Source of the DNA: Gammaproteobacteria bacterium
GTDB lineage: Bacteria > Pseudomonadota > Gammaproteobacteria > Pseudomonadales > Cellvibrionaceae
Length of the DNA: 64,000 bases
Direction of reading: 5' to 3'
Assembly (NCBI GenBank): GCA_004172865.1
Contig: SEBV01000001.1
Location: forward strand, 248,001 to 312,000
Made by a program: the position numbers and the translations under genes. Positions 16,546 through 29,066 of the stretch are shown one piece after another (within the stretch, counting starts at the first letter, position 1; each line of letters opens with the position of its first letter). Under the pieces are notes generated by a model that saw only the letters and a list, made by a program, of their open reading frames with translations, was not told where the DNA came from and did not search any database.

Positions 16546-17133
16546 ATGAAGTCTGCCAGTAAAATAATTTTCCTATCTATTACTTTTATTCTCTCAACAA
16601 ATTCCGGATTAGTTTTCGCTGCAGAAAAATCAGTGGATAGTAAAACTGCGCATTACACAAAACTCAATGCAAAAGGCAAAGCGGCGGGTGATAAAGTAAA
16701 TGCAGCGCGCTGTGTTATTGATAACCAAACCGGTCTGGTATGGGAATTAAAAACCGATGATGATAGCGTTCACGATAAAAATAATACTTATCGTTGGGGC
16801 GGTCGCGGTGCTGAGCAAAGTGGTGCGATATTTTTTGACGATTGGAATACATTGCTCGATGCAACCAATAAAGAAAAATTATGCGGCTTTAATGATTGGC
16901 GTGTACCTAATATAGATGAATTAAAAACGCTGGTTGTTACTGGCGCGAATCCCGCTATTGATATAATTTTTTTCCCGCTAACTTTGCCGAAACCTTATTG
17001 GTCGGCATCCGCTTATAAAAATTATCCCGAGCATGGGCAAACCGTACATTTTGAAACGGGTGCTTCTTATTATTACAACGGCTTTCGCGGTGATCGCTTG
17101 CCGCTACGTTTGGTACGCAGCAAATCGCAATAA
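16546..17133 (+). CDS. DUF1566 (Lcl C-terminal)-type exported protein
   Basis: 195 aa; signal peptide; VIDNQTGLVWELKT, CGFNDWRVPNIDELKTLV, YWSASAYK. Confidence 0.8.
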   Translation: MKSASKIIFLSITFILSTNSGLVFAAEKSVDSKTAHYTKLNAKGKAAGDKVNAARCVIDNQTGLVWELKTDDDSVHDKNNTYRWGGRGAEQSGAIFFDDWNTLLDATNKEKLCGFNDWRVPNIDELKTLVVTGANPAIDIIFFPLTLPKPYWSASAYKNYPEHGQTVHFETGASYYYNGFRGDRLPLRLVRSKSQ

Positions 17134-17206: not shown

Positions 17207-19108
17207 TTACTGACCAAAACTCCAACGTAATCCTGCTCGCCATAATAATCCCGGGGTGGGGAAGCCGACGGCGGTGTGGGCGGTTTTATCGAGTACATTT
17301 TCTAGCGTGAAATTCAGTGTGAGTGAATTGTTTAGTGCCCAGAAAATAGTAGCGTCTATGCGTTCGTATCCGTTCAGCGTTTCAAGTGTTGCATCGCCAG
17401 TGTGTTGGCTGGTGGCGTATTGGTCGGCGAATTGTTGATAGTCCAGACTGCTGCGCCATTGGTCGTTAATTTGCCACATTGCAGCTACACCGGCGTGCCA
17501 TTTTGGTCGGCCCGTTAATACAGACGCGCTATTTTTTATATCGATATCTGTGTAAGTCGCGTTGGCGTTTATGCGGAAGCGGTTATTGGTGCTGTGCCAG
17601 TTCGCTTGCCATTCCACGCCGCTGGTGTCGATTTGTTCGCGATTGACGTTGGTGAAAAGCTCCGCATCGAAATCGATAAAATCGCGATAGGTATTTTGAA
17701 AATAATCGACGCTGGTGGATAGTTGTTCGCTGGCTTGCCAGGTAATGCCTGCATCCCAACTCTTAACGCGTTCGGGCTTCAAATTCGGGTTGCCGACGAG
17801 TGGATGACCGAGGGCGTAGAAGCTCGGTAATTTGTAGCCATTGCCGATGTTAGTGTGAAAAATAATTGCCTCATCTAGCTCATAGCGCAGCCCGATTTTG
17901 GATGAAGTTCTATTGCCGAAATCATCGTTATCATCATTGCGCGTGCTGGCTTGTAGCAAGAGTTTTTCATTCACTTGCGCGTTCAAGTTTACAAATAAGC
18001 TATTGGTGGCGCGTTCAAGGGCGAAATCCGTCGGCATCACGAAACCGAAATCCAGATAACCTTTGCTATCGCCTTTTTCGTTGAGATGTTCCAGTCCCAC
18101 ATTCGCCCATAATTTTCCTTCCTGACCAAGGGTATTAACCCAGGTTATTTGCTTGCGTTCAAATTCGGTGTTTGCGCCGTTAGGCGGAATGGCGTTATAG
18201 GGTGCGATTCCCGGCGATGTGTAGTCTTCGCTGCGGCGATAAAGAGTTGCTTGTAGATTACTTTTCCATTGGTCGGCGATTTGATATTGCCAGCCGAGTG
18301 CGCCGCTCTTATCGGTAAAGTCGGTGTGATCGAGTAGGGGGGATTGTGCGAATTCGGGGCCTCCGCTTTGCTCGGGGTAGCTGCTGCGTTTGCCATCGAA
18401 ATAACGCAGGCTGGCGGTAATGCGGTGTGCGTCCGACGGTTTCCAGCCCAAACGCAAATTGACTTCGCTATCTTTTGCTTCGCTGCCTTGCACTGGTTCG
18501 CCGCTGTCGCGGGTGCGTGCCTGGAATGAATAATCGGTGGTGTCAGTTGCGCCGAGCGCGCTAAAGCCTGCTTGTTGATAACCGTCTGCGCCGCCAGATG
18601 CGGTGAGCATTTGCTGATGTCCATTCGCGGGCCGCAAGCTGATGATATTAATTACGCCCGCTACTGCATTCGCGCCGTAAATTGCCGATTGCGGGCCACG
18701 CACAATTTCAATCCGTTCAATCGAATCGGGATTAATGCTGCCCAAATCAAAAGCGCCGCCACGGCTATTGCCGGGGTCGTTCATGGCTACACCGTCAATC
18801 ATCACCACGGTGTAATTAGAGTCGCCGCCGCGAATGGATGCTACTGCCAAACCGCCAGGGCCGCCCTGGCGCTCCACTAAAATACCGGGAACAGTTTGCA
18901 GTAGATCGGCCAAATTGGTTTTGTTGAGCGAGGCGATATCGGCGCGATCAAGCACGCTTACGGCTGATGAAATTTGCTCAACCGGCGTTGGGTTGTAGGT
19001 GCCGGTCACAATTACTTGTTCTGCGGATTGGTCTGCATACACAGATAATGATGCGATTGCCAAGGCTGCAGGCAGTACGGCAATGGGAAAATGTTTTATA
19101 AGTTTCAT
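17207..19108 (-). CDS. TonB-dependent outer-membrane receptor (BtuB-like)
   Basis: 633 aa; EQVIVTGTYNPTPVEQISSAVSVLDRADI (TonB box/plug), IERIEIVRGPQSAIYGANAVAGVINI. Confidence 0.88.
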   Translation of the reverse strand: MKLIKHFPIAVLPAALAIASLSVYADQSAEQVIVTGTYNPTPVEQISSAVSVLDRADIASLNKTNLADLLQTVPGILVERQGGPGGLAVASIRGGDSNYTVVMIDGVAMNDPGNSRGGAFDLGSINPDSIERIEIVRGPQSAIYGANAVAGVINIISLRPANGHQQMLTASGGADGYQQAGFSALGATDTTDYSFQARTRDSGEPVQGSEAKDSEVNLRLGWKPSDAHRITASLRYFDGKRSSYPEQSGGPEFAQSPLLDHTDFTDKSGALGWQYQIADQWKSNLQATLYRRSEDYTSPGIAPYNAIPPNGANTEFERKQITWVNTLGQEGKLWANVGLEHLNEKGDSKGYLDFGFVMPTDFALERATNSLFVNLNAQVNEKLLLQASTRNDDNDDFGNRTSSKIGLRYELDEAIIFHTNIGNGYKLPSFYALGHPLVGNPNLKPERVKSWDAGITWQASEQLSTSVDYFQNTYRDFIDFDAELFTNVNREQIDTSGVEWQANWHSTNNRFRINANATYTDIDIKNSASVLTGRPKWHAGVAAMWQINDQWRSSLDYQQFADQYATSQHTGDATLETLNGYERIDATIFWALNNSLTLNFTLENVLDKTAHTAVGFPTPGLLWRAGLRWSFGQ

Positions 19109-19147: not shown

Positions 19148-19171
19148 GTCTGCGCTGTTTCCAGCGCAGAC
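19148..19171 (-). terminator. Terminator downstream of the large dehydrogenase gene
   Basis: Perfect 10-bp stem GTCTGCGCTG/CAGCGCAGAC followed on the minus strand by TTTTTTTT. Confidence 0.85.
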
Positions 19172-19210: not shown

Positions 19211-22200
19211 TTATTTATTAGAAGTCCATTCAATGGCTTTGCGGATCATCTCGGTCATATTCGGGTCCGAGAAATTCGCGTCCACGTGTCCAACGGCGGT
19301 ATAGAAAGTACGGCCTTTACCGATGGTGCTGGTGTAAATCACCGGGTGATCCGCGACCGGGTAATTCGAGGTGTAACTGGTGCGATCCAGAGTCCCGAGC
19401 ACTTGTACTGTCGGTACGTTGCGTGGATCGGTTTTCCAGAAATACCACTCATCGCTCAACCACCATTCGGCGCCAATGTGATTTACCAAGCTATTGGTTT
19501 GTTGCTCGATTTTCACTTTCGCCCGTGGAATACCATCGCCGTGGTGAATAAATTCACCGCCCGCCAAGAGTGTTCCGGTGTACCAGGGCCAGTTGTGCTC
19601 GGTATCCGCTGCTGAGTGAGTACCTACCCAACCGCCGCCGTTTTCAATGTAAGCCTGGAATGCGGCTTTTTGATTGGCATCGAAGATATCGCCAGTGGTG
19701 TTCATAAACACAACCGTTGAGTACTTCGCCAAATTGGCGGTAGTGAACAAGCTTGCATCCTCAGAAGCCGCCACTGTGTAGCCATTTTCAGCAGCGATTT
19801 TTTGCAGCATGGCGATACCGGCTGGGATTGAATCGTGACGGAAGCCAGAAGTTTTCGAGAAAATCAGTATGCTCGGGCAGCTGGTACCACAGCTGACGCG
19901 GAACTTACGGGTTTTCGGCACGCTGACTTCAACACCGCTGCTATTTACCAGACTCACTTTCAGGGTGTGCGGCCCAGTCGCTAACAAGCCGAGGTTGATG
20001 GCATTGAGGTTATTCACTTTTACCGGTGCGTTGTAGTCGAGGTAATAGTTGTAACTGCCGTTTGGAACCCAGCTGGTGTCAGAGATAGCCACTTGCAGGC
20101 TTACGTTGGTGGTTTTGGCGATAACAGCATCGGCTGCTGGCGCTACAAAACTGATCAACGCGGGATTGGTATCCACCGCAATGCCATAGGTTTCAAACTC
20201 AAACAGTGAATAGCCGTAAGTCGTTGCCCGTACAGTTCCGCGCATGCGGATGTAACGACCGCGTTGGCCATCCAATGTGATGGTTTCAATCCCGCCAATG
20301 CCGTTGTTGTTAGTGTAGGCGTTGGTCCAATCAGTACCGTTTTCAGATACATCGATGGTGTAGGCCTTGGCGTAAGCCGGTTCCCAATTCAGCAGAACTT
20401 TGGTGAAATAGAAGCTCTTACCCATATCCAGTTGCAGATATTGTGGATCGGCAGCCGCACTTTCCCAGCGAGTGGTGGTGTTTCCATCAATCGCCGCCGC
20501 CGCCGTATTAGCACCAAGAATCGTAGACGCCGACGCCGATACCGGAGTCAACTTTGCAGGGCTTGGCGTAACCGGTGTAGTACCGCCGGTTTTCACGGTG
20601 AAAGTACGGCTGGCAGCTGTGCCTACTACGGCGTTGGCGGCGTTGTACAAGGTTGCCGTTACGGTGTGAGTACCCACTGCTGGTGCACCGAGGTTGACCG
20701 CATTCGCATTGGTGACTTTTACCGCCGTACCGCTATTCAGTTTATAGCTGTAGCTATTGCCCGCGGTAAACCAGGCGGCATCGCTAATGGCGACTTGCAG
20801 GCTTACGTTGGTGCCAGAGTTATATTCCTGACTCGCCGTTGGCGTTGTGATGCTGATCGTCGGTGTACCTGCTGCGGCCACACTGAACGTGGTGGTGACA
20901 GCTGTACCGACTACCGCATTCGCAGCGTTGTACAGGGTTGCGGTAACTGTATGAGTACCGACTGCTGGGGTTCCAAGATTAACCGCGTTGGCGTTAGTCG
21001 CTTTTACGGCAGTCCCGTTATCCAGCTTGTAGGTGTAGCTATTGCCAGCGGTGAACCAGGCTGAATCGCTAACGGCAACTTGCAGATTAACTGCCGTGCC
21101 CGATGTAAACGACTGGTTAGCTGTGGGCGCTGTGATCGCAATCGTTGGCGTTGAGCTGCCAATCGCACTGCCAAGCACAGTGAATTCCCACAAGGAGAAG
21201 CCCCATTGCGTCGCACGAGTTACGCAATTCAAGCGCACATAACGACCTTGACCGCTGACGGTCAGGGTGTCTATGCCACCATCGCCGGTAGTCGTTGTAT
21301 AGAGTTGCGTCCAGGGTGCAGCACCGGTATCCGATACCTGAATGTTGTAACCCTTGCCGTAAGCACCTTCCCAATTCAATACCACCTGGCTGATATTCAT
21401 CTTCGAGCCTAGGTCGATTTGAATGTATTGGTTGTCCGCCAACGCACTTTCCCAACGGGTATTGGGATTGTTGTCTGTCGCATTGGCCGCAACGTTGGTT
21501 CCGGTAATCGCTGAACTGGTGACTGGTTTGCCAACCGAAATTGGCGCTGCAGCCACAGCATTTACCGTAAACGAACGTGTAACCGCCGTACCAACTGCTG
21601 CACCCGCTTTGTAAAGCTGCAAGCTGAGGTTGTGAGTGCCAACTGCTGGCGTACCGAGGGTTACGGCATTGCCATTGGCGACGGTAACTGCAGCCGCATT
21701 ATCCAGCGTGTATTTATAGCTGTTGCCAGCGGTAAACCAGGTTGAGTCAGACACTGCTACTTGTAAACTAACTGCGGTGCCCTGGTTATATTGCTGGCCT
21801 GCCGTTGGCGTAGACACGCTGATGGTTGGCGTTGGAGTGCCCACCACATCGCTGCTGCCCCATACTTCAAATTCAAACAATGAATAACCGTAACCAGTCG
21901 CTCGCGTAGTGCCGGTCAAACGAATGTAGCGATATTTGCCGGTAACTTTGTCGTGGATTTCAATACCGCCGGTGCCGTTATTTTGCGTCACCAGATTGGT
22001 CCAGGTGGTGCGATCAAGCGAGCCATCAACCTTGTAGACTTTGCCGTAAGCCGCTTCCCACTGCAGCATTACTTCGCTGATGTTGTAGGCTGCTTGCAGG
22101 TCAATCTCAAAAGTTTGTGGATCGGCAAAGGCGCTGCCCCAACGAGTGGTTGGGTCACCATCAACCGCTTTATTCCCCGTCAAATCACCTTCAAAGGAAG

Positions 22201-25042
22201 ACACAGTGACTGGCTTGCCTTTGGAGAGCAGTATTTTTTCGGTCGGTTGCGTCGTGCCGCCCAAGCCGGCAATCCATTGGCTCAGCAGCGTTATGTATTC
22301 GCTGTGTTCCAAAGAACGGCCAATCGGTGGCATACGGTCGTTGGTATTGATGCTCTTGTCGCGAATATAGAGGATGGATTCAGTCGCTTTACCAGACGCA
22401 ACTACCTTGGCGTTGAGAATGCCGTAGTCCTTATCGTACTCACGAATACCGGTAGTAAGCGCATCCACAATCTTCATTTGCGCCAGTGGCGTGTTGTAGC
22501 GCGCATCCCATTGCGACGCGCCGTTGCCGGTGCCGTGGCAGTGCGCACAGTTAGCATCGAGATAGGATTTCACGCGTTTTTCCAAATCCGCACTGGTATC
22601 ACTCAATGCAGCAAGCTTGTCGTAAGTACCGACTTGCGCGTTGTTGAGAGCAGGCGTGAAGAGCGCGAGATTGTTGAAATGCACCAGTTGATTTTCAGTA
22701 ACGTTACCGGGGTAGGTGTAGTTACTGTTGAGTTGGCGCGTGCTCAGACCGAGGATTTGCGATGACTCCGCGTTGTGGCAGGCCAGGCAATCTGATGGGC
22801 TTGGGTAAGTCCAGGTTTGTTTGCTCGTGGTATTGTCCGCATTGGTAATGGTGAAATCTTGCGTTGCACCTGTGGTTAACAAATCTGCATCAGTACCATC
22901 TGCGCGCCATTTATAGGTTACGCCGTAGACTTTGCCGTCAGCTTTGGTAACGATCAAACGTGTCTCCAGCGGCTTAACGGTGGCGGGATTTTTCGCATCC
23001 ACTGGCAAGGCAAAGTGTTTAACCGCAACTGTACCTTGTGGGTAAGTCCAGTTGTCTTTCGCGCTCCAATTGATTTTTTTGGATTTGGGAATGGAGATCC
23101 AGCGTGATTTTACTGCGCGATCAGACCAGAGTTGGCTGATAGGTGCAAAGGGAATCAAGTTGGCCGAAGGCACAAAGTTAGCATTGGTAAGGCTGGTAAA
23201 TGCACCGGTTTGCGATAACAACTTGGGTACGCCGGTGAAAGCTGCGTCCAGAGTTTTGGGCATATTCAAGTAAGCGAATTCAGTCAGTGGCTCTTCCGGC
23301 GTGGTCGCCTTGGCCGCGTAAACTTCGAATTCATAAATTGAATGGCCGTAAGCACTGGCGCGTGCCAAACCGGTAAAGCGAATGTACTGGTACTTTTTGG
23401 TGGAGTTGATCATACGCAACTCGGTCGCACCGGTACCGGCTTTTTCATCTACTAACAAATCCCATGGGCCGTTCGCGGTTGTAGAGGCTTCGATGGTGTA
23501 TTTCGAGCTGTAAGCGGCTTCCCACTTGATCTTGATGCTCGCAATATCTGTCGCTGCACGCAGGGCGATATTCAGTACTTGTGGATCAGTAGCGGCAGTT
23601 TCCCAACGAGTTGTCTCGCTACCATCCACAATATTCGATGGAAGGTTACCGTTTACTGAGTTACCAGTGACAGTTGCGCCCAGGGCAAGGTTTGGCCCGC
23701 TGTCGCGGTCGCCAATGTAATCAAAACGATAGAGCGAACCGTTATTGAAGGGTTCGTGATCGCAGCAACCTGAACCCCATTGCAACACGTAGAGTTGTTG
23801 TGTGCTTGGGTCGAACTCGGCGTCGTTAGCGCCCTGGAAGTTGGTGGTATTGAGCGGTAAATCTTCTGGAATTGAAGGTCTGGTTTGATCAGCCACTTTA
23901 ATGGTGAAGAATTTACTGCTGTTAAAATCCCAATAAATCAAGCGGCCATCAAAATAAGCCGGCAATTTAAATTCATTTTTTATCGCATCATTAATACGGT
24001 AAACCGGGCCCGCCATAGTAGCGCGGTGCAGAATCGTCCAAATCGCTGGTTTGTTAGGTGGAAGGGTTTTAGCACCGGTGTTGGTCGCGTAGTTATTGGT
24101 GTTGTTAAGCGCGTTGTAACCCGCATAAGGTTCGTTAAAACCGAGCACATAGGGCCAACCGTAGTTGCCGGGTTCTTTCAATTCATTGAGTTCATCCATA
24201 CCCATTGGGCCTTCTGCGCTAGCAGCTGAAGCATCTGGGCCAATATCGCCAACGTAGGTGATGTTAGTTAAAGGATCGATATTCAAACGATAGGGATTGC
24301 GAAAACCCATACCGTAAATTTCACCGCGATGGGTTGAATCCTGCGGGAAGAGGTTGCCTGCAGGAATGGTGTAGCCACCCGCTGCCGTGGGGGTGATGCG
24401 CAACACTTTACCGCGCAAGTCATTGGTATTGCCCGAAGTCTCTTGGGCACCGGCAGAGAAATAACCGGTTGCCGCATTGTTATCACCGGTGGTGATGAAC
24501 AAATTGCCGTTCTTATCGAACTTGAGCGAGCCGCCCATATGGCCGTTGGCTTCGCGGCCAGTAATCCATTCCAGTACAATTTTTTCTGAAGCGGTATCCA
24601 GTGAGTTATCTGCTTTTACAACAAAGCGAGATACGCGCGTTTTGCTGCCAGGTGAGGTGTATTGCAGGAATACATAGCCGTTGGTGGTGAAGTTGGGGTC
24701 AAGCGCAATGCTCAACAAACCATCTTCAAATTCACAGCGCACGTTCGGCACTATTGAAGTCGGGTTGGTGTTGGCCGGGCCGCTAAGTTTCCAACCGAAA
24801 AACTTGCCGCATTTGCTGACAATAAAAACGCGGCCATCTTTAGAAATTTCAAATGCCGTTGATAAATCCAGCCCCGTCGCAATTACCGTGCGCTGGAAGT
24901 CGGTAGCTACAGGCGCTTGCGCGCTTGCTGAGCCAATCATAAACACGTTCAGGGTGAAAATAGAAAGCAACAGCCAAAGCCGTTTACACATTGTATTACT
25001 TGCAGCGAACCGCATAGCTATCAGGTTTATTAAGATGTTCAT
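19211..25042 (-). CDS. Secreted multidomain protein: PQQ-type glucose/sorbosone dehydrogenase, discoidin, di-CxxCH cytochrome region, discoidin/Ig repeats, ThuA-like domain
   Basis: Start moved to M11 of the ORF (25042, GGAG upstream). GSDH-like residues ~56-455, discoidin ~459-587, heme motifs CLACH (762-766) and CAHCH (842-846), discoidin ~945-1073, ~1175-1301 and ~1504-1631, Ig-like ~1080-1172, 1307-1400, 1402-1495 and 1636-1727, ThuA ~1733-1953 (ORF numbering). Confidence 0.88.
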   Translation of the reverse strand: MNILINLIAMRFAASNTMCKRLWLLLSIFTLNVFMIGSASAQAPVATDFQRTVIATGLDLSTAFEISKDGRVFIVSKCGKFFGWKLSGPANTNPTSIVPNVRCEFEDGLLSIALDPNFTTNGYVFLQYTSPGSKTRVSRFVVKADNSLDTASEKIVLEWITGREANGHMGGSLKFDKNGNLFITTGDNNAATGYFSAGAQETSGNTNDLRGKVLRITPTAAGGYTIPAGNLFPQDSTHRGEIYGMGFRNPYRLNIDPLTNITYVGDIGPDASAASAEGPMGMDELNELKEPGNYGWPYVLGFNEPYAGYNALNNTNNYATNTGAKTLPPNKPAIWTILHRATMAGPVYRINDAIKNEFKLPAYFDGRLIYWDFNSSKFFTIKVADQTRPSIPEDLPLNTTNFQGANDAEFDPSTQQLYVLQWGSGCCDHEPFNNGSLYRFDYIGDRDSGPNLALGATVTGNSVNGNLPSNIVDGSETTRWETAATDPQVLNIALRAATDIASIKIKWEAAYSSKYTIEASTTANGPWDLLVDEKAGTGATELRMINSTKKYQYIRFTGLARASAYGHSIYEFEVYAAKATTPEEPLTEFAYLNMPKTLDAAFTGVPKLLSQTGAFTSLTNANFVPSANLIPFAPISQLWSDRAVKSRWISIPKSKKINWSAKDNWTYPQGTVAVKHFALPVDAKNPATVKPLETRLIVTKADGKVYGVTYKWRADGTDADLLTTGATQDFTITNADNTTSKQTWTYPSPSDCLACHNAESSQILGLSTRQLNSNYTYPGNVTENQLVHFNNLALFTPALNNAQVGTYDKLAALSDTSADLEKRVKSYLDANCAHCHGTGNGASQWDARYNTPLAQMKIVDALTTGIREYDKDYGILNAKVVASGKATESILYIRDKSINTNDRMPPIGRSLEHSEYITLLSQWIAGLGGTTQPTEKILLSKGKPVTVSSFEGDLTGNKAVDGDPTTRWGSAFADPQTFEIDLQAAYNISEVMLQWEAAYGKVYKVDGSLDRTTWTNLVTQNNGTGGIEIHDKVTGKYRYIRLTGTTRATGYGYSLFEFEVWGSSDVVGTPTPTISVSTPTAGQQYNQGTAVSLQVAVSDSTWFTAGNSYKYTLDNAAAVTVANGNAVTLGTPAVGTHNLSLQLYKAGAAVGTAVTRSFTVNAVAAAPISVGKPVTSSAITGTNVAANATDNNPNTRWESALADNQYIQIDLGSKMNISQVVLNWEGAYGKGYNIQVSDTGAAPWTQLYTTTTGDGGIDTLTVSGQGRYVRLNCVTRATQWGFSLWEFTVLGSAIGSSTPTIAITAPTANQSFTSGTAVNLQVAVSDSAWFTAGNSYTYKLDNGTAVKATNANAVNLGTPAVGTHTVTATLYNAANAVVGTAVTTTFSVAAAGTPTISITTPTASQEYNSGTNVSLQVAISDAAWFTAGNSYSYKLNSGTAVKVTNANAVNLGAPAVGTHTVTATLYNAANAVVGTAASRTFTVKTGGTTPVTPSPAKLTPVSASASTILGANTAAAAIDGNTTTRWESAAADPQYLQLDMGKSFYFTKVLLNWEPAYAKAYTIDVSENGTDWTNAYTNNNGIGGIETITLDGQRGRYIRMRGTVRATTYGYSLFEFETYGIAVDTNPALISFVAPAADAVIAKTTNVSLQVAISDTSWVPNGSYNYYLDYNAPVKVNNLNAINLGLLATGPHTLKVSLVNSSGVEVSVPKTRKFRVSCGTSCPSILIFSKTSGFRHDSIPAGIAMLQKIAAENGYTVAASEDASLFTTANLAKYSTVVFMNTTGDIFDANQKAAFQAYIENGGGWVGTHSAADTEHNWPWYTGTLLAGGEFIHHGDGIPRAKVKIEQQTNSLVNHIGAEWWLSDEWYFWKTDPRNVPTVQVLGTLDRTSYTSNYPVADHPVIYTSTIGKGRTFYTAVGHVDANFSDPNMTEMIRKAIEWTSNK

Positions 25043-27845: not shown

Positions 27846-29066
27846 TTAATTTTTTAGCGGGTATTTCTCAGCCCATTTTTTATATTTCAGCAACACTTTA
27901 TTCCCCGCCGTGTTGTACCATCCATAACCATTGCGTCGCTCTTCTGATATTTCGCTCACCGTGTAATGAATTGAACTATCGCGATCACCGAACACAGGTT
28001 TGTTGGTACCAATTTCATAAAATCTCGCCCACATCGGTGGTGCCTGCGGATCAGCTTGCGGCGCCACATCATTATGGGCCCAACGCTGCCCAACAATTTT
28101 ATTATCATCCAACCATTTCGCTGCGGCATGAATAGCTTTAATGGTGTCGGTATCGGGAGATTTTATATCCATCAAAAAATTAATGAGCGAAGCACTTTCT
28201 GAAGTAGAAAGCGAAATCATTTCAAAGTTGCGCGCTTTCGCGGGCGCAAGCGTTACACGGTCATGTTGCGCCCCCCAAATAGTTAATTGTCCGTTGGTGA
28301 CAACCTGGGTTTTCTTAATGCAATCCAATCCTTTCGCAAAACTTTGCTGCGCAAGCTCGCGTGTTTTTTGCGATGTAAACGCATATTCATTTTTGCCCTG
28401 GCCAATGTCATACAACAACTCCATTAAATCTTTCATAAGATTATCGTTGTAAGTAATGTGATCGTGATAGCCGCTTACCAAGGGATAATTTTGCGGCCAG
28501 CCACCATTGGGGTACTGCGCATCCAAAATTAACTGCACGCCGCGTTCAAACGCATCGGAATAAATTTTCTTTTGTGTTAGCGAATAAGCTCGGGCAAGTA
28601 ATTGTAATTGCGTGCTAGTGGCATCGTTATCGAAGGTGGGAATGTAATCTGCTTCAACACCAAATGCCTGGCCTTTCTGACGCGGGCCTTTTGCCATGTC
28701 AGTACGTTTTGACCATCCGCCTGATGGCGTTTGGAAAGAGAGAATATTATTTAAAATGCGCTCGCCTTCTTCACTTTTAAACCAATCATCAGTCTGCTTA
28801 GGGTCGAATCCAAATTGATTGATGTGTTCGGGAAGTGTCGCTTTATTGAGGCCGAGTGCTTTTACTTCCGCTGCAATTTTAGCTTGGTCGAGTTTTTGTA
28901 ATTTGTTGGATTTTTCAATGTAGGCACGCCATTCCGGTGTATTGGGAACGGGGTTTTTAGTATGTTCTTCGCCTGTGGCAGCGAAGCTTGAGATGCTTAA
29001 TAACAACAGACTTGAAAGGCAATATTTTAAATATTTCGCGCATAGAAAATGTAATTGGATTTTCAT
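27846..29066 (-). CDS. Pectate lyase, PL10 family
   Basis: 406 aa; signal peptide; QTPSGGWSKRTDMA, FDNDATSTQLQLLARAY, YPNGGWPQNYP, HDHITYNDN, PPMWARFYEIGTNKPVFGDRD, RRNGYGWY. Confidence 0.88.
   Translation of the reverse strand: MKIQLHFLCAKYLKYCLSSLLLLSISSFAATGEEHTKNPVPNTPEWRAYIEKSNKLQKLDQAKIAAEVKALGLNKATLPEHINQFGFDPKQTDDWFKSEEGERILNNILSFQTPSGGWSKRTDMAKGPRQKGQAFGVEADYIPTFDNDATSTQLQLLARAYSLTQKKIYSDAFERGVQLILDAQYPNGGWPQNYPLVSGYHDHITYNDNLMKDLMELLYDIGQGKNEYAFTSQKTRELAQQSFAKGLDCIKKTQVVTNGQLTIWGAQHDRVTLAPAKARNFEMISLSTSESASLINFLMDIKSPDTDTIKAIHAAAKWLDDNKIVGQRWAHNDVAPQADPQAPPMWARFYEIGTNKPVFGDRDSSIHYTVSEISEERRNGYGWYNTAGNKVLLKYKKWAEKYPLKN

Follow-up and report, generated by a model that had tools for sequence, protein, structure and literature searches.

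The window, that is, the whole stretch of 64,000 nt of DNA that was analysed, carries on its minus strand a gene for a fusion protein of 1,943 amino acids, in which a signal peptide is followed by the modules GSDH-CBM32-diheme-CBM32-Ig-CBM32-Ig-Ig-CBM32-Ig-ThuA. The parts of this gene and the features next to it are listed here with their coordinates in the window.

16546..17133, plus strand: 195-aa protein with a leader and an Lcl_C domain, its gene convergent with that of the receptor; a homologue lies near the fusion in 6 loci
17207..19108, minus strand: BtuB-like TonB-dependent receptor, 633 aa, directly downstream of the fusion (profile and locus comparison)
19148..19171, minus strand: terminator-like hairpin between the fusion and receptor genes, 10 bp stem with 7 GC pairs, T8 tail
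19211..25042, minus strand: fusion gene, 1,943 aa (intact ORF, Pfam, TIGR03806, relatives)
19223..19870, minus strand: ThuA domain, residues 1725-1940 (Pfam PF06283; Foldseek 4jqs)
20183..20545, minus strand: F5/8C (CBM32-like) domain 4, about residues 1500-1620 (Pfam; phmmer; 4zxe/4zy9, 49-50% identity)
21170..21532, minus strand: F5/8C (CBM32-like) domain 3, about residues 1171-1291 (Pfam; phmmer 2rva/4zz5)
21848..22210, minus strand: F5/8C (CBM32-like) domain 2, about residues 945-1065 (Pfam)
22265..23227, minus strand: TIGR03806 (SO2930-family) diheme cytochrome domain, residues 606-926 (profile match, AF2)
22535..22549, minus strand: haem c motif 2, CAHCH, residues 832-836, inside the TIGR03806 match
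22775..22789, minus strand: haem c motif 1, CLACH, residues 752-756, inside the TIGR03806 match
23312..23689, minus strand: F5/8C (CBM32-like) domain 1, about residues 452-577 (Pfam; Foldseek 4zxe, 37% identity)
23708..24913, minus strand: GSDH six-bladed propeller, residues 44-445 (Pfam PF07995, phmmer to Asd structures, Foldseek, residue table)
24920..25042, minus strand: Sec signal peptide, residues 1-41 (hydrophobic leader; cleavage between ASA and QAP, judged by eye)

The reading frame runs from an ATG at 25042, with an RBS-like GGAG directly 5' of it, to a stop at 19211 and contains no internal stops. Chance motifs, a frame artefact, and mis-assembly were ruled out by the full-length TIGR03806 match and by the recurrence of this domain order in 14 other relatives of full length. 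The single chain with GSDH, diheme, four discoidin domains, and ThuA that had originally been predicted is thus a stable fusion, and its coordinates and domain order proved correct by Pfam and TIGR03806. Secretion, which was part of the same prediction, is supported by the Sec-type leader with its putative ASA/QAP site, and the mature N-terminal start of the protein is kept in the relatives.

Domains and genomic neighbourhood

The match to TIGR03806 covered profile positions 2-313 of 314 (E 4e-67) with 226.6 bits, which is below the curated cut-off of 313.3, as are the scores of the other GSDH-fused TIGR03806 members tested (197-286 bits). As both CxxCH motifs, which are retained in all 15 fusion proteins compared, lie inside this full-length match, the haem region corresponds to an established domain, and the diheme assignment that had been made from the two motifs is supported. 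Using AF2, two pieces of the fusion were modelled separately, with only the fusion protein and its relatives as input. The diheme domain was predicted as a beta-rich part followed by a helical haem part, and the model of the N-terminal GSDH-diheme piece (pTM 0.57) does not fix where the haems lie with respect to the propeller.

Four stretches matched the Pfam family F5_F8_type_C above its gathering score (E 1.7e-72, 242 bits). These discoidin domains are 42-50% identical to the chitosan-binding modules 4zxe/4zz5 of Paenibacillus IK-5, and the AF2 model of the C-terminal piece matched the chitosan-binding CBM32 4zxe as well as the ThuA-like structure 4jqs in Foldseek. The proposed CBM32 character of the discoidin domains therefore stands, in that they are of the glycan-binding kind and close to chitosan-binding CBM32s, and this degree of identity is no more than suggestive of carbohydrate binding. 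As they resemble 4zxe/4zz5, and as binding to laminarin, chitin, and lichenan has been shown for a discoidin domain from Paenibacillus (PMC2789033), beta-1,3-glucan or chitosan is our best guess for the substrate. The ThuA domain is complete, as had been claimed, since PF06283 was matched at positions 2-209 of 209 (E 2.4e-62, 211.3 bits in comparison to a gathering score of 33.4) and the fold agreed with 4jqs (TM 0.76 on target).

In 7 of the 15 loci, the next gene downstream of the fusion, in the same orientation, encodes a BtuB-like TonB receptor, and the remaining neighbours are mostly different. The receptor of the window scores below the BtuB cut-off. At the positions of the PqqU residues Y99, K274, R304, R365, N477, and R536 it has A, F, R, S, Y, and a gap, and these contact residues rule it out as a PQQ importer. 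An ordinary operon of fusion and receptor is weakened by the strong terminator-like hairpin between them. A hairpin of different sequence is found at the same place in six other receptor loci (L032-L036 and L043), and the element could be a terminator or an attenuator. The pairing of fusion and receptor is thus conserved, while simple co-transcription is not supported. No Rfam element or riboswitch was detected ahead of the receptor, nor anywhere else in the window, at gathering threshold.

The fusion is preceded by genes for di-haem oxidoreductases (PF06537) in three loci (L039, L040, and L043), and such genes are found farther away in L032/L033. GH16 genes are located near the fusion in L037 and L041. 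With respect to the suggested coupling to an LPMO, two AA10-type genes were found elsewhere in the window's genome. In two loci (L041:13402-17821 and L042:13888-18420), the fusion is followed by apparent FecI/FecR-type genes and an STN-type TonB receptor, which suggests surface-signalling control of the fusion in the genus concerned. A pectic acid lyase gene (PF09492) is located near the fusion in the window (27846-29066, minus strand). A homologue of it beside the fusion was not found in the relatives examined, and we read this gene as a sign of a plant-polysaccharide lifestyle.

The propeller, its cofactor site, and the source of PQQ

The GSDH family PF07995 was matched by residues 63-309 (E 1.7e-36, 126.6 bits with a gathering score of 25 bits), and the AF2 model of the propeller resembled the Asd/sGDH structures 2ism, 2g8s, and 1qbi (Foldseek, E about 1e-20), with HHIP structures also among the top fold matches. 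With the sGDH model TIGR03606, the propeller scored 56.6 bits, below the curated cut-off of 434.55 bits. The landmarks are His168, Arg248-Asn249, Gly278-Pro279, His339, and Cys426-Cys427. In the alignment, the catalytic His168, Arg248-Asn249, the Ca-site Gly278-Pro279, and Glu105-Asp106 were invariant in all 15 fusion proteins, and most of this set persists in permuted relatives. The PQQ carboxylate anchors of sGDH/Asd, Lys377, Arg406, and Arg408, are replaced in every fusion member, the aligned positions being F373/N374, G404, and N406 (Ile in relatives). The sGDH numbering is in part the one that we take to be in general use and otherwise that of the AA12 structure paper.

PQQ is held in this fold by different residues in the AA12 structure (PMC6881789). 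We also compared the AA12 pocket, which comprises Arg273, His363, Arg430-Asn431, His539, His560, Trp563-Asn564, and Arg621. The His and the Arg-Asn pair are kept in the fusion, K77 and H339 are plausibly placed, and an equivalent of Arg621 is absent; the fold match was weaker for AA12 than for Asd/sGDH (Foldseek). As the fold tolerates other residues, and yet Arg621 of AA12 is gone as well, we consider PQQ binding by the propeller plausible and go no further than this. The original assignment as a PQQ sugar dehydrogenase was therefore overstated: the invariant catalytic residues and the Asd/sGDH-like fold agree with it, whereas the carboxylate-anchor half of the site is missing in all members and pqqC and pqqE were not found in the genomes tested.

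A check for PQQ biosynthesis genes had been suggested along with the original prediction. Neither pqqC nor pqqE was detected in any of the 19 genomes tested, and the same pqqC model matched 25 of 117 genomes of the order as a positive control. The membrane glucose dehydrogenase TIGR03074 was likewise not found in the fusion-bearing genomes. A homologue of the importer PqqU is present in 10 of the 13 fusion-bearing genomes, with scores below the model's own cut-off. The contact residues for PQQ have been described for E. coli PqqU (PMC12124388), and in two aligned homologues K274, R304, R365, and R536 were kept and Tyr99 was replaced by Phe. As pqqC and pqqE were not found and most of the genomes have a PqqU-like importer, PQQ, if used, would be scavenged. 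The search for PQQ users in the importer paper covered PF01011, PF13360, and PF13570 and not GSDH (PMC12124388), and GSDH-type proteins are therefore a possible overlooked destination of imported PQQ.

The window's own genome also encodes an AA12-like GSDH with an RGSWNR loop (L068:3932-5761, on contig C30 of genome G000), which is oddly fused to a PEBP (YbhB-like) domain and is the likelier canonical PQQ user. Cys78, Cys103, and the vicinal pair Cys426-Cys427 are invariant in the fusions and absent at those places in E. coli Asd. In ThuA-first GSDH proteins (L010, L046, L086, and L087), vicinal cysteines stand directly before the position of the catalytic His (CCH motif); in the window-type GSDH, the pair sits late in the propeller. 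Such pairs recall the vicinal disulfide of methanol dehydrogenase.

Distribution and relation to known systems

Among the 118 genomes searched, full-length fusions occurred in 8 genomes of the same genus (very probably Cellvibrio), including the window's, and in 4 genomes from 3 other genera of the family. Three genomes hold two copies; these paralogues (L035/L039 in G011, L033/L040 in G012, and L043/L044 in G050) differ in length and neighbours. The 15 proteins compared, that of the window and 14 others, have lengths of 1,540-2,038 aa and share the order GSDH-CBM32-diheme-variable middle-CBM32 or Ig-ThuA, so the middle of the chain varies and the catalytic, haem, and ThuA parts are constant. 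A set of 274 genomes from across the class yielded GSDH-diheme and GSDH-CBM32-multihaem chains (the latter L080 and L081) but no additional full fusion. GSDH-diheme chains are L009, in the window's own genome, and L082-L085. A permuted ThuA-GSDH-diheme chain (L046) occurs within the family, a ThuA-GSDH-PKD-cytochrome c chain (L010) in the window's own genome, and ThuA-GSDH chains outside the phylum in Bacteroidota and one halophilic archaeon. That the three modules have been joined repeatedly and in changing order is a good argument for a joint function. A Paenibacillus plasmid match was discarded as an example of the fusion, as it had neither an annotation nor an open frame of at least 900 aa.

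The modules are known ones, and databases already contain pairwise fusions of them; the fusion of the window is a new arrangement of such modules. The proteins WP_284686271.1 of Chondrinema and WP_227778265.1 of Haladaptatus also combine ThuA with a GSDH of this type (annotated as 'ThuA domain-containing protein'), but there ThuA is N-terminal, whereas the fusion of the window has a C-terminal ThuA and in addition the TIGR03806 diheme and four CBM32-like domains. GSDH-fused TIGR03806 cytochromes of the SO2930 family share the full-length diheme domain after the propeller; in comparison to these, the fusion has a CBM32-like insert between the two parts and the added ThuA. The fungal AA12 enzyme CcPDH (AA8-AA12-CBM1) likewise unites a quinoprotein propeller, a haem domain, and a carbohydrate-binding module in one chain, and some of the pocket residues are shared (PMC6881789), but CcPDH has a b-type haem and an unrelated CBM and is without ThuA, and the fusion is missing the equivalent of Arg621.

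With the sGDH/Asd structures 1qbi, 2g8s, and 2ism, the fusion shares the propeller fold, the catalytic His, the Arg-Asn pair, and the Ca-binding Gly-Pro; it differs from them in being multidomain, in an identity of about 20%, and in the replacement of all three carboxylate anchors. The CBM32 modules of the Paenibacillus IK-5 chitosanase/glucanase, which have the same fold as the C-terminal discoidin copy (42-50% identity), are attached to a hydrolase, whereas the discoidin domains of the fusion are attached to an oxidoreductase. The ThuA family is also represented in the ThuAB trehalose-maltitol pathway of Agrobacterium/Rhizobium, but there ThuA is encoded apart from the dehydrogenase ThuB and not within a GSDH-cytochrome chain.

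Proposed function and alternatives

We propose that the fusion is a sugar dehydrogenase that is secreted, tethered to polysaccharide, and equipped with a haem relay of its own, a reading for and against which the evidence seems to us evenly balanced. The four discoidin domains would anchor the fusion to a polymer of the beta-glucan or chitosan type, judging by their relatives of known structure. The propeller would oxidise a saccharide end or an oligosaccharide, with Ca2+ and PQQ taken up from outside as the most likely cofactors, although only half of the classical site is kept. The electrons would pass to the two c-type haems, whose motifs are present in the same chain, and then leave the protein, with another cytochrome or the di-haem oxidoreductase that is encoded beside some relatives as conceivable external acceptors. 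Propeller and diheme domain would thereby form a possible self-contained oxidase with its own electron acceptor. As thuAB has been genetically linked to 3-keto-disaccharides (PMC7404187), the C-terminal ThuA may act on sugars and bind or process the oxidised, possibly 3-keto, product, and uptake of this product or of a cofactor may be the task of the adjacent TonB receptor. A more far-reaching version, which we consider improbable, is a hydrolase-free oxidative attack on polysaccharides by one chain, in which the CBM32 domains would provide the tether, GSDH would convert a ring hydroxyl to a keto sugar, the diheme domain would remove the electrons, ThuA would cleave or rearrange the keto-glycoside, and the TonB receptor would take up the product.

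It is also conceivable that the propeller has no catalytic role and serves for binding or as a scaffold, as in the hedgehog-interacting protein (HHIP), and that the fusion is a surface protein which carries haem and binds glycans multivalently. This would account for the loss of the carboxylate-binding residues in every member and agrees with the HHIP structures among the top fold matches and with the missing PQQ synthesis genes. However, we regard it as unlikely, as the His168, Arg248-Asn249, Glu105-Asp106, and Gly278-Pro279 set is invariant in the fusions and mostly kept in the permuted relatives, and as the constant linkage to a cytochrome makes little sense without a redox role. A catalytic propeller with a cofactor other than canonical PQQ, be it another quinone or a redox-active Cys pair (Cys78/Cys103 or Cys426-Cys427), is in line with the altered carboxylate pocket, with the invariant cysteines that E. 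coli Asd does not have, and with the CCH motif of the ThuA-first proteins. But these cysteines may be plain structural disulfides, PqqU homologues are encoded in most fusion-bearing genomes, and we are not aware of another cofactor in any protein of this fold, so that we find this explanation distinctly doubtful.

The role of ThuA can be questioned independently of the propeller. ThuA could be an extra glycan-binding module only and the chain an ordinary dehydrogenase with an extended tail for binding, which is compatible with the rest of the tethered-dehydrogenase reading and which we see as a real possibility, though one on the unlikely side. In a surface protein of Bacteroides, levan is bound by a domain with a ThuA-like fold (PMC7618045), and our literature search found neither proven catalysis for any ThuA nor papers on ThuA-GSDH proteins. 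On the other hand, the ThuA core with HHGDGIP, DEWY, and ADTEH belongs to the most invariant stretches of the chain, and fusions of ThuA with GSDH recur in phyla that are far apart.

ThuA and the ThuA-associated GSDH propellers are widespread, and a biochemical characterisation was not found in the literature search. The conserved chain brings ThuA, GSDH, a haem relay, and glycan-binding domains together, and their joint function is testable with one expression construct. The fusion is a possible destination of imported PQQ in bacteria that seem to rely on uptake of PQQ and not on its synthesis, and it could be a bacterial counterpart of the fungal AA8-AA12-CBM1 enzymes.

Three other large proteins of the window's genome contain a DHOR di-haem oxidoreductase domain (L092:3447-6287 and L092:6847-10389, on the minus strand of contig C91 of G000, and G000:C227:436509-439463). 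Two of them also carry CBM32-like discoidin domains, and discoidin-linked haem proteins are thus a recurring build in this lineage.
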